Assembly (NCBI GenBank): GCA_016190145.1
Contig: JACPRD010000095.1
Location: 1-39,390 of the forward strand
Origin: Planctomycetota bacterium
GTDB taxonomy: Bacteria; Planctomycetota; MHYJ01; WSZJ01
Length of the DNA stretch: 39,390 nt
Direction of reading: 5' to 3'
In this document: one piece after another, positions 5,679 to 25,344 of the stretch
Numbering within the stretch: the first letter of the stretch is position 1
Layout of the letters: each line of letters opens with the position of its first letter
Program-made: the position numbers and the translations under genes
Notes under the pieces: model-generated
The model's input: the letters and a program-made list of their open reading frames with translations, nothing else
Told to the model about the DNA's origin: nothing
Database searches by the model: none

Positions 5679-8600
5679 GAGGCCCTCCGGGACTCCACGG
5701 CGTGCCAGAGGACGGGGATCAGGATCAGCGTGAGGAACGTGCTCGAGAGCATGCCGCCGAGCACGGTCACGGCGAGCGGGGACTGGAGTTCGGAGCCCTG
5801 TCCGAGCCCGATCGCCATCGGGAGGAGCCCGAGAATCGTCGTGAGGCTCGTCATCAGCACGGGGCGCAGCCGCGACTTCGAGGCCCGCACGATCGCGTCC
5901 GTCGGGTCCGCGCCCGCCCGGCGCAGCTGGTTGGCCGCGTCGATCAGCACGATCGCATTGTTCACCGCGATTCCCGCCAGCACGATCGCCCCGATCGCCA
6001 CGATCACCGACACCGGCGTCGCCGTCCACTTGAGCGCGAGGATGACGCCCACGAAAGCCATGGGCAGCGTGAACATGATGAGGAAGGGGTGGAGCAGGCT
6101 TTCGAACTGCGCCGCCATCACCACGTAGACGAGGAACGCGGCCAGGACGAGCGCGAGGACGAGGGAATCTCCGGAAGCGCGCAGTTCGCGGCTCTGTCCG
6201 CCGACCGAGAACTGCACGTCGCGGGACTTCGGCAGCCCCGCCACGGCTTCCTCGATCGAGCGCGCCGCGCCGCCGAGGTCGTACCCCGCGACGTTGGCGC
6301 GGACGAGCGCCGCGCGCTGGTGCGCCACGCGGCGGATCTCGTTGGGCCCCTCCGCCCGGTCGAATGTCGCCACCGCCCCCAGCCGCACCGGGATCGGCGC
6401 CCCCGGATTCACCACGATCGTCTCGACGCGCCCCAGCTCCGCCACGTCCGCATCGGACCCCTTCACGCGTACCGGCACCTTCCGCTCCGCTTCCGCCAGC
6501 TTCGTCGCTTCGGTCCCCAGCACCTCGTGCTGCACGATCGTCGCGACGGCGTTGATGTCGAGCCCGTACTCGGCGAGGCGGGCGCGGTTGTAGAAGATGC
6601 GGATTTCGGGGTTGCCGCGGCCGACGGTGGATTTCACGTCGGTGAGCTGCGGCAGTTTTGCGAGGGCGGCTTCGGCGTCACGCGCGGCGCGGCGGATTTC
6701 GGCCAGGTCGTGGCCGCGGACTTCGAGCTCGACGGGGGTGCGGAACGAGAAGAGGACGGGGTGGGCGACTTTCATGGTGACGTCGGGGAGGTCGCGGAAG
6801 CGTTCGCGGAGGGCGGCGAGGACGGATTCTTCGGCGGCGGCGGTGTCTTTCGCCGGGTGGAGGCGGACGCGGATGCGCGCGGTGTTCTCGCCCTCGGACT
6901 CGCGGCGGTTGGCGTCGTCCTCGACGCCGACGGCGGTGACGGCGGAGGCGACGCCGGGGGTCGCGAGCACGAACTTCTCGATCTCCGCGACCTGCAGGTC
7001 GGTGCGCTCGATGGGCGTGCCGACGGGGAGCGCGATTTCGAGGACGAACTCGCCCTGGTGCATCGTCGGGATCAGCTCCTGCGCCAGCCCCGGGACGAGG
7101 CGGAAGGAAGCCGCGAACGCCGCGAGGCAGGCGGCGCCGACGACGACGCGGTTGCTCAGCGCGACGCGGAGCGCGCGGGGGTAGGCCTCGTTGACGGCGC
7201 CCATGAAGCGGTTGAACACCCAGAGGATCGGAGCGATGGCGAACCCGAGAGCGATGCCGAGCAGGCGCGCGGCGCGGAAAGCGATCCAGGCGAGGCCGAA
7301 GGCGATCGCCAGTAGTATGCGCAGCGGAATCTCCAGCGCCAGGGCAACCGGGAGTACGAGAGCGGCCAGGGCCGCATCGAGCCGACCCAGGAAGCCGGAA
7401 TCCCAGCCTTCGCGGATCCGCGAGAAGTAGGAGAGGGACGAGAGTCGGAAGATCTCGCGCCTGGATTCAGCGGGCGAAGCGGCCCACTGGCGCGAGGCGA
7501 GCATCGGAACGAAGAACAGCGACACGCCCATCGACATCATGAGCGACATGCACACCGTCAGGGCCTGGTCGCGGAAAATCTGCCCGGCGATGCCCTCGAC
7601 GAACGCGATCGGGAAGAACACCACGACCGTCGTGAGCGTGCTCGCCGACACCGCGAGCCCGACCTCCTTCGTCCCGCGCATCGCCGCCCCCGCTCGGTCG
7701 TCCCCTTCCTCGCGGCACCGCGCGATGGAGTCCAGGACGACGATGGAAGCGTCCACCATCATGCCGACGCCGAGGGCGAGTCCGCCGAGCGACATCACGT
7801 TGAGCGAGACGCCGGAGACGTGCATGGCCCCGAACGTGCCGATGATCGAGAGGGGGATCGAGACGCCGATGATGAGCGTGTCCTGGACGGACCGGAGGAA
7901 GAGGAACAGGACGACGACGGCCAGGAGGGCGCCCTGCCATGCGGCATCGCGCACGGAGGCGATGGCGTCCCGCACGAACGTGCTCTGGTCGCTCAGCACG
8001 GGGGCGCGGATGCCTTTCGGGAGCCGGACGCGCCCCTCCGTTTCCTCTTCCTTCGGCGCGCCGCCCCGGCCCTGGGCGAACTTCTTCGTGTACTTCGCGT
8101 ACCACGCCTCGGGCTCGCCCTCGAGCCGGACGCGCACCGCGTCGGCCACGGCGACGATGTTCGCGTCGGCTTCGCGGTAGATGTCGAGGAGAACGGCCTC
8201 GTTTCCGTCGATGCGGGCGATTACCTGAGGGTCCTTCGACACCCGCCGGATCTTCGCGACCTGCGAGAGCAGCACGTCGGCGTCGCCCTTGCGCGCCACG
8301 ACGATCGAGCCGATCTCCGCGTCGGTCCGGAACTCGTTCAGCGTGCGGACGAGGTACTCCACGTCCCCCTCGATCAGCGACCCGCTCGCGACGTTCAGGT
8401 TCTCCTGCCCCAGCTTCTCCGCCACCTGCCGCGGGTCGAGCCCGAGCTGCGACAGCGCCGCGCGGTGCAGCTCCACCCGGATTTCTTCTTCGCGCCCGCC
8501 GCGCACCTTGACCGCCGCGACGCCCGGCGTGCTCTCGAGCGACCGCCGCACGTCGTCCTCGGCGATCTTGCGCAGCTCCACCAGCGTCCGGCTGCCCGTC

Positions 8601-23920: not shown

Positions 23921-24679
23921 ATGAAGCGTGCGTGGATCGGGGTCGTCTGTTTCGGACTGGCCGTGGTCGCTGAGGAGCCGCCCGCGGAGAAGCACGCCGT
24001 GCTCGGCGCGGTTTCGCGCAGTCCGTCAAAGGACGAAACGAAGGCGCTCGGGCTCGGGAGCGCGATCGCAGGACGCGTGAACGGGCAGATCGTGACGGAG
24101 GTGGAGAAGGGCGGGCCCGCTGAAGCTGCCGGCCTGAAAACGGGCGACGCGCTCCTCGCACTCGGCGACAACCTGGTCTACTCGCGGGACGACGTCGACG
24201 ATTTTCTGCGCGCGGCCGCGCCGGGGGCGGAGGTCCAGGTGCGCGCCATGCGAGCGGAGTCGAAGAAAGAAGAAACGCTGACGGTGACTCTGGGCGCGGA
24301 GAAAGGCGCCGCCTTCGCCGGCATCCGCTGGGACTTCGCCGGCCCCGGCCAGCTCGACGAGGCGCTCGCGGCCGCGAAGAAGGAAGGCCGGAAGGTGCTG
24401 GTGGGCATCAGCGGCGCGGAGACGTGATGACCCACGACCCGCTTCGAGAGCCGTGAGCTCTCGGAAAAGCTCGGCGACGCCTTCGTCGTGAAAGCCTCGG
24501 AGAAGTTCGTCCGCGTCATCATCCGCCGCCCCCACGCCTATGCTTTCGCGAACGAACATAAGGGCGCGCAGATCCCCGGCCTCGCCGTCCTCGACGCCGA
24601 AGGAAAGCTCGCCGGCACCGCGGACATCGACGGCGACTCCGCAGCCATCGCGAAGGAGCTCGAGGCGCTCGCCCGGTGA
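23921..24679 (+). CDS. PDZ-thioredoxin-like selenoprotein with two adjacent in-frame TGA codons
   Basis: A GAGGGAGG ribosome site precedes the ATG. The 252-residue frame runs through TGA at 24425 and 24428 (residues 169-170) to the TGA stop at 24677. A signal peptide (residues 1-17) is followed by a PDZ domain (about 45-130, with VEKGGPAEAAGLKTGDALLAL) and a thioredoxin-like domain (about 140-252). The TGAs fall at GAE-T-U-U-P-T-T-RF, where thioredoxins read A-D-W-C-x-P-C-K. The first thus replaces the nucleophilic Cys and the second its neighbour, while the resolving Cys is Thr. The fold continues after the TGAs with the cis-Pro strand AQIPGLAVLDAEGKL. No other stops or shifts occur. A hairpin follows. 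A redox or metal-binding role outside the cytoplasm is inferred. Truncation by real stops is the alternative, and is unlikely. Confidence 0.85.
24445..24463 (+). promoter_or_regulatory. SECIS-like hairpin for the TGA-TGA pair
   Basis: A perfect 7-bp stem CGAGAGC/GCTCTCG has a 5-nt loop CGTGA. The loop G lies 23 nt after the second TGA. Bacterial SECIS elements are short stem-loops inside the coding region, directly downstream of the UGA, with a G (often GU) at the loop top, so size, place and loop all fit. Confidence 0.7.
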
Positions 24680-25344
24680 AGCGAGCCGCGCTGCTGGCAG
24701 CCCTGCTCGCCGGGTGCGCTTCCGCCCCCCCGGCGGAGCAGCGCGTGTCGATCCGCGTAGACGGCATGGTCAAGACCCAGGGCCTGACCTGACTCGGCTG
24801 ACCCAACGCCGTCGAGGAAGCGCTGGAGGCGCTTCCCGGGATCTGCGAGTTGACCGTCGTCCTCGAGCACGACCGGTTCGACATCCGTTTCGATCCGGCG
24901 GTCGTCACGGTCGATCGGATGCTCGAAACCGTGCGCGCGAAGGGCTACGAGCCGGCGGTCGTTCCCGATGGCGGAGAGCCGGCCGCCGCGGTCCGGGAAA
25001 TCGACCCCGCGACCCTCTCCGATTCCCTGCGCGGCCGCTTCGAGGAGGCCCGCCGCGCCGGCCTCCCGCTCCTGATCGACGTCTCCGGCCCCGGCTGAGC
25101 GACGTGCGAACGCATGGATGCGGAGACGTATCCCGACGCGGCGGTGAAGGCGGAGCTGGCGAACTGGGTCTTCATACGCCTGGACCTCGCGACTGCTCGC
25201 GCGGACGCGAAGGCGCTCGGCGTGGCGGCTGTCCCGACGGCGGTGGCGGTGACGCCCGAGGGACAGGTTCTGGGCAGGCTGGAAGGATTTGTGAACGCCG
25301 AGGATTTCGCGCAGGCGCTGAGTCGCCTGCGCGCGGCCCGCTGA
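24676..25344 (+). CDS. Lipoprotein selenoprotein: HMA (MerP-like) domain plus thioredoxin domain, three in-frame TGA codons
   Basis: GTG 24676 overlaps the previous stop (GTGA). One frame of 222 residues crosses TGA at 24790, 24799 and 25096 and ends at TGA 25342. It has a lipoprotein signal with lipobox LLAGC (Cys14). An HMA domain (about 22-96) starts VSIRVDGM, carries U39-L-G-U42 followed by PNAVEEALEALPGI, and ends LETVRAKGYEPAVV. This matches MerP-like domains, where C-x-x-C-P binds the metal. The thioredoxin domain (about 115-222) has LPLLIDVSGPG-U141-A-T-C144-ERM and the cis-Pro strand AAVPTAVAV, as in DsbD-gamma-type domains. All three TGAs sit at Cys positions, so UxxU and UxxC are read. 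A periplasm-facing metal or thiol exchange role is inferred. Conventional gene callers would split it. Confidence 0.88.
24816..24836 (+). promoter_or_regulatory. SECIS-like hairpin for the HMA UxxU pair
   Basis: A perfect 8-bp stem GGAAGCGC/GCGCTTCC has the loop TGGAG. The loop starts 23 nt after the second TGA (24799-24801) and 32 nt after the first. Placement and loop G match the hairpin of the preceding gene. Confidence 0.7.
25102..25129 (+). promoter_or_regulatory. SECIS-like hairpin for the thioredoxin UxxC
   Basis: The inner stem CGCA/TGCG holds a TGGA loop (25115-25118), and an outer ACGT/ACGT stem surrounds an internal loop. The loop begins 17 nt after TGA 25096-25098. It is weaker than the other two, but its TGGA loop is shared with the HMA hairpin. 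Confidence 0.5.

Follow-up and report, generated by a model that had tools for sequence, protein, structure and literature searches.

The window analyzed here is a 39,390-nucleotide stretch of Planctomycetota DNA, and its forward strand carries a gene (24676 to 25344) that very likely encodes a 222-amino-acid lipoprotein with three selenocysteines (Sec; U), which we call the HMA-thioredoxin fusion selenolipoprotein. Read from its GTG start with TGA taken as Sec, the frame from 24676 to 25341 contains TGA at codons 39, 42, and 141, contains neither TAA nor TAG, and is followed by a terminal TGA (25342 to 25344). We take the terminal TGA as the real stop, as RNA folding downstream of it was weak and several homologues stop at this place with TAA or TAG. 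A signal peptide and lipobox (L11-A12-G13-C14) are encoded at 24676 to 24717, and similar motifs ending in GC or AC were found in homologues. By inspection, the lipobox LLAGC occupies residues 10 to 14 and ends in Cys14, which meets the criterion for a lipoprotein; lipidation itself is inferred. The signal is followed by an HMA (MerP-like) domain at residues 22 to 96 (24739 to 24963), which matched PF00403 with 43.2 bits against a gathering score of 24.8 (Pfam boundaries, 35 to 92), and by a thioredoxin-like (cDsbD-like) domain at residues 113 to 220 (25012 to 25335), which matched Thioredoxin_2 (PF13098) with 40.2 bits against a gathering score of 27 (Pfam boundaries, 126 to 215).

The three internal TGA codons fall within these domains. 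U39 (24790 to 24792) and U42 (24799 to 24801) occupy the two metal ligand positions of the HMA domain, and U141 (25096 to 25098) replaces the first cysteine of the thioredoxin active site, UATC, in which the second cysteine, Cys144 (25105 to 25107), is retained. An earlier note, made by reading the letters without database searches, had proposed the same coordinates, a single frame with three TGAs and no TAA or TAG, TGAs placed at the HMA CxxC and at the first thioredoxin cysteine with Cys144 kept, and a seven-residue insert between the GM of the HMA motif and the first Sec; each of these claims held, the last in the structural model and in 34 of 36 family members described below.

The insert, VKTQGLT (24769 to 24789), extends the metal-binding loop and was supported by both the secondary structure of an AlphaFold2 model and the family alignment. 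In the model (mean pLDDT, 91.3; pTM, 0.74), beta-1 spans residues 22 to 29 and is separated from a helix at residues 41 to 51 by a small additional beta turn. Profile alignments that start at residue 32 would instead make VKTQGLTU an ordinary beta-1 with no insert, and that possibility was rejected by the position of beta-1 in the model and in the family alignment. Foldseek matched the first domain to MerP (1osd; TM-score, 0.91 by target) and the second domain best to the C-terminal domain of DsbD (2fwf; E value, 2.9e-8), and PDB sequence searches agreed with both assignments. Thus, the confidently predicted structure is a MerP-like HMA domain with an extended metal loop joined to a cDsbD-like thioredoxin domain.

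To define the family, a profile of the window's protein and its same-genus orthologue was searched over 392 Planctomycetota genomes, and 36 neighborhoods were then searched locally with stops read through. The searches yielded 36 HMA-thioredoxin fusions in 31 genomes, each with two to four in-frame TGAs at aligned positions. The orthologue in a genome of the same genus (G001) was 58% identical and contained all three TGAs, and its neighborhood was also conserved: an MFS-type transporter gene, a PDZ-UU gene (described below), the fusion gene, and an aldolase-like gene. G001 also has a further PDZ-UU paralogue after the fusion. The three TGAs are not due to chance, since they are repeated in the 58%-identical gene and aligned TGAs occur in 36 fusion genes from 31 genomes. 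The HMA motif was UxxU after an extended loop in 33 members, UxxC in one (L101, with cysteine in place of U42), and UxxxU with an ordinary GMTU loop in two (L127 and L128), the only members without the insert. At the thioredoxin site, 16 members carried UxxC and 20 carried cysteine in place of U141 (CxxS in one). When an HMA-only profile was searched over the Planctomycetota sample, the top 36 matches (E < 1e-15) all contained TGA, and the first TGA-free HMA domains, with canonical cysteines, appeared at 6e-13 and aligned only from behind the loop. We conclude that within the 392 genomes searched the extended-loop HMA domain is seen only with Sec, unlike most selenoprotein families.

A fourth TGA was observed in three fusion genes (L116, L119, and L122), all from one family within the window's class, at the sequence IPDT-U-IL just past the cis-Pro loop; the corresponding residue in L118 is arginine. 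It is possible that such members contain four Sec residues. No homologue was found on the plasmids searched. Outside the Planctomycetota, the scan consisted of two narrow peptide patterns applied collection-wide and matched one planctomycete contig, and thus absence elsewhere has not been shown.

A bacterial selenoprotein gene is expected to have a SECIS hairpin just past the UGA, with a G among the first bases of the loop. Hairpins that meet this description were found after UGA-42, at 24816 to 24836 (a 9-bp stem of 24816 to 24824 and 24828 to 24836 with a GGA loop at 24825 to 24827, 23 nucleotides past the UGA), and after U141, at 25116 to 25133 (a stem of 25116 to 25122 and 25127 to 25133 with a GAGA loop at 25123 to 25126), the evidence being weaker at the thioredoxin UGA. 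The hairpin after the second UGA of UxxU keeps a constant spacing from that UGA. Across 30 members, 86.7% of the cells in the UxxU hairpin were paired and six of nine pairs had changed on both sides. Covariation was 0.293; shuffled alignments gave 0.141 (none of 500 matched the observed value), and sliding the stem gave no more than 0.077. Moreover, folding energy after the second HMA UGA was −13.2 kcal/mol versus −7.9 kcal/mol at other codons of the same genes (P of about 1e-16). Hairpins at the thioredoxin site were stronger in members with U than in members with C (P = 0.025) and were not significantly stronger than those at random codons of the same genes (P = 0.11). In a second subfamily, the stem at almost this position is a different one. 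One point against the Sec reading is that two UGAs 9 nucleotides apart would need one common hairpin.

A codon bias or a protein-level cause for the hairpin was considered and excluded. Where the peptide ALEG lies shortly after a UGA, it was encoded by GCC-CTG-GAA-GGG in 19 of 21 cases, compared to 0 of 27 controls elsewhere in the same set of loci. We note that the sequences compared are related to one another and that the counts are therefore not independent.

The Sec machinery was sought in the window's genome (G000, in which the window is contig C59), a 5.35-Mb draft that is 85% complete and in 217 contigs. The genome contains tRNA-Sec with the anticodon TCA, an intact selA (462 codons) that lies upstream of the tRNA gene by about 300 bases, and a selD with an in-frame TGA of its own (SCAGUASKL). 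SelD appears to be a selenoprotein in the window's genus, with loci L162 (G000:C181), L160, and L161. When the selB-specific domain PF09107 was used, no selB was found in the 85%-complete assembly, and the C-terminal wing domain that it describes was present in four of four other genus members. Matches to TIGR00475 in the window's genome were considered as selB candidates, and those that were read were other translation GTPases (EF-Tu, IF-2, LepA, and TypA types). The missing selB is plausible because selA starts 152 bases from a contig end.

The earlier note had held that its reading would be refuted by a genome without selB or tRNA-Sec, by homologues that end at these TGAs, or by evidence that the TGAs are read errors. 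The first was answered in part, as tRNA-Sec, selA, and selD were found and selB was found only in the other genus members. Homologues read through the TGAs; 20 of the 36 have cysteine rather than Sec at U141, as one does at U42. Read errors are ruled out by the conservation of the TGAs, together with SECIS-like hairpins, in independent genomes. The architecture, the conserved TGAs, the hairpins, the Sec genes in the genome and genus, and the operon neighbors are shown by sequence. We conclude that the fusion gene very likely encodes a genuine three-Sec lipoprotein belonging to a selenoprotein family of the Planctomycetota, on sequence evidence and in the absence of protein-level data.

The GTG start of the fusion gene and the stop codon of the gene before it overlap as GTGA, and in G001 the two genes overlap likewise, as ATGA. 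The preceding gene (23921 to 24679, forward strand) encodes a PDZ and Thioredoxin_7-like protein with two adjacent TGAs, U169 and U170 (TGATGA; 24425 to 24430), within the motif SGAETUUPTTRFES. A SECIS-like hairpin with a 9-bp stem lies after UGA-170 at 24443 to 24465 (loop CGUGA, 24452 to 24456). The gene is likely a selenoprotein gene, and its Sec-Sec nature was missed by the earlier note. Besides the window and G001, the fusion and the PDZ Sec-Sec gene are also adjacent in G161 (L117), G202 (L124), and G246 (L110), and a truncated MerR lies upstream in L124 as well. As a separate observation, the PDZ/thioredoxin-7-like Sec-Sec family had 16 matches in 14 Planctomycetota genomes, 15 with two TGAs, and good SECIS-like hairpins.

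Elsewhere in the family, the fusion gene often has mer-type neighbors. A MerR-family regulator was found beside the fusion in 15 of 36 loci and a CopZ-MerT-HMA protein in 12 of 36 (only parts of the protein matched in some loci), such that 18 of 36 had either or both. The usual order, merR, merT, and fusion on one strand, occurred in eight loci, with the MerT gene 28 to 412 bases upstream of the fusion, and no MerR match was found in 273 kb of other sequence from the same genomes, which served as background. All nine MerR proteins scanned against NCBIfam had the mercuric MerR (TIGR02051) as best match, below its equivalog cutoff, and the MerT matches were also below curated equivalog cutoffs. 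The residue corresponding to Cys82 of mercuric MerR was visibly kept in the regulators. The regulator in L102 scored 112.2 bits against CadR-PbrR and 113.1 bits against MerR. No merA was recognized among the neighboring proteins scanned near fusion genes, and no mer genes lie beside the fusion at the window locus or in the genus sister. A contig elsewhere in the window's genome (C186; L194:5280-7268) carries merR and a CopZ-MerT-HMA gene, both with ordinary cysteines and separated by the gene for a small CPGKILCPITGEEVC protein, and no fusion gene follows.

Additional in-frame TGAs were observed in genes near the fusions. Two MerR-type regulators, L099:8010-8405 (reverse strand) and L102:6914-7327 (forward strand), have a TGA at their counterpart of Cys117, a mercury ligand, and an identical hairpin, GCAGC-GGUC-GCUGC, follows the TGA in both; the two could possibly be selenocysteine metal sensors. 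Directly upstream of the fusion, a small HMA selenoprotein with the motif GFLUMxCP (UxxC with an extended loop) was found in L099 (about 7784 to 7987, reverse strand), L102 (about 7332 to 7532, forward strand), and L100 (about 6907 to 7106, forward strand). Further HMA domains with TGA at a ligand position were found at L119:8100-8471, L121:4936-5601, L106:8102-8338, and L111:7566-7775 on the reverse strand and at L125:8257-8466 on the forward strand. HMA domains of this kind include those of MerT-like proteins (GMTUPQSCP).

The reading that we prefer, and the simplest that combines these features, is that selenols of the protein trap Hg(II) or a similar soft metal outside the cytoplasm and relay it, with a selenol reductase built into the same chain. 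In this reading, the protein would be exported, lipidated at Cys14, and periplasm facing. The extended HMA loop would offer the selenolates of U39 and U42 for capture of a metal that is soft and thiophilic, Hg(II) being the likeliest, and the cDsbD-like domain, by means of a U141/C144 selenenylsulfide couple, would reduce or exchange at the HMA site. The thioredoxin domain may thereby keep the selenols reduced or pass the metal on to a subsequent carrier (MerT/CopZ/HMA, in loci that have it), and in the window's genus electrons or exchange may come from the cotranslated PDZ-thioredoxin Sec-Sec protein. The putative protein would thus resemble a MerP with selenols and a fused reductase. Export, the identity of the metal, the electron source, and the direction are all inferred, with the operon data favoring Hg(II), and the link to mer operons rests on 18 of 36 family loci, which do not include the window locus. 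The suggestion of the earlier note, a metal binder with its own reductase and perhaps for Hg, is supported by the mer-type operon context, and the metal remains unproven. We consider the whole reading to be the one that the evidence favors by a modest margin, with the metal and the chemistry inferred.

A copper or purely redox role remains open because the window locus lacks mer genes, no merA was recognized nearby, and the regulator scores are below cutoff. The first alternative is that Sec is real and that the protein handles redox or selenium generally outside the cytoplasm rather than binding metal, in which case the HMA fold would be a second redox center (a U39-U42 diselenide) for the thioredoxin domain to reduce, much as in a fusion of nDsbD and cDsbD. 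Consistent with this alternative, the thioredoxin domain is nearest to cDsbD, a UxxU diselenide is chemically plausible, and a Sec-Sec thioredoxin neighbor without intact mer genes found beside it occurs in the window, L094, L110, L117, and L124. The alternative is nonetheless unlikely, as half of the loci adjoin MerR and/or MerT proteins, which are products of metal genes, and the fold is MerP/CopZ-like. The second alternative is the same selenol capture for copper or another soft metal, such as Cu(I), Ag(I), Cd, or Pb, rather than mercury. In its favor, the HMA domain has profile matches to both CopZ and MerP, the neighbor protein carries fused CopZ-type domains, and the L102 regulator fits CadR-PbrR almost as well as MerR. 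We regard it too as improbable, as all nine regulators scanned matched mercuric MerR best with the Cys82 counterpart kept, and the membrane part is MerT. The third alternative, that TGA encodes an ordinary amino acid under a changed code or reflects sequencing errors or a pseudogene, could appeal to the draft assembly and to the selB not found there but is all but excluded, as the gene itself ends at a TGA where several homologues have TAA or TAG, the internal TGAs, which recur across genomes with SECIS-like hairpins behind them, are confined to metal or redox positions, and tRNA-Sec, selA, and selD are present.

The preferred reading, in which selenols trap and pass on Hg(II) or a similar metal, can be extended to a selenium-based system for mercury, or for soft metals, in many Planctomycetota in which the ligand-carrying parts are selenoproteins. 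The parts would be the capture lipoprotein with three or four Sec residues, the small UxxC HMA protein, sometimes MerT, and even a MerR-type sensor at the Cys117-like position, with the Sec-Sec thioredoxin partner added in some lineages. We put this extension forward tentatively, as the evidence for it falls slightly short of an even case. Selenols and thiols are commonly held to be the targets through which mercury is toxic. If the preferred reading is true, a family with selenols at the Hg-binding cysteine sites of MerP and with its own selenol reductase would test directly, in nature, whether selenium serves in mercury defense. Moreover, the extended-loop HMA domain, found only with Sec, may be a case in which cysteine will not do, and members with three or four Sec residues and a Sec-Sec neighbor are good models for the decoding of multiple UGAs in bacteria. 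The family is likely underreported, because standard annotation, which takes TGA for a stop, breaks its genes up or misses them.

A 2026 inventory of prokaryotic selenoproteins, which covers 119 families (PMC13188914), includes a UxxU metal-binding protein (NF041115), a Thioredoxin_2 UxxC protein, a Trx7/PDZ CxxU protein, and a Sec-containing mercuric transport protein, and GOS data have yielded MerP-like selenoproteins (PMC2398784). The HMA-thioredoxin fusion is absent from the inventory, in which the most Sec residues given is three, and no matching mention was found in the deep-Sep paper (PMC12013277). The proposal of the earlier note that the fusion may be undescribed agrees with the inventory. 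We conclude that the fusion is likely a new family built from known selenoprotein domains, where "undescribed" is provisional given incomplete coverage of the relevant literature. The PDZ Sec-Sec protein is also missing from the inventory; its nearest entry, NF041199 (Trx7/PDZ, CxxU), has related domain types, but the partner differs in its adjacent Sec residues and scored 34.3 against 300. Similarly, the MerT/CopZ fusion-like selenoprotein NF045683 is related to the mer neighbor, and the MerT neighbor in L109 scored 79.2 against 375.

Among systems that resemble the fusion itself, NF041115 (UxxU_metal_bind, "putative mercuric reductase," two Sec residues; PMC13188914) is likewise of the HMA type with Sec at both ligand positions. 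Its model, however, is a single domain of 74 positions, whereas the fusion has an extended loop and a thioredoxin domain; the fusion HMA domain scored 49.3 bits, short of the cutoff of 95, and the homologues scanned reached no more than about 52 bits. The Thioredoxin_2 "thiol:disulfide interchange" selenoproteins (PF13098, UxxC; PMC13188914) share the second domain, but the inventory entry has one Sec residue and no HMA domain. The nearest solved fold for that domain is cDsbD, in which the first cysteine of CxxC corresponds to Sec in the fusion; unlike its counterpart, the fusion domain is not part of the DsbD membrane protein and is joined to an HMA domain. Finally, the fusion shares with MerP (TIGR02052) and the MerTP fusion (NF033556) its fold, ligand positions, inferred export, and, in half of the loci, the company of mer genes, but differs in having Sec for Cys, a predicted lipid anchor, a loop extension, and a thioredoxin domain. 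The fusion scored 23.7 bits against TIGR02052, short of the cutoff of 92.55, and may nevertheless work like MerP.
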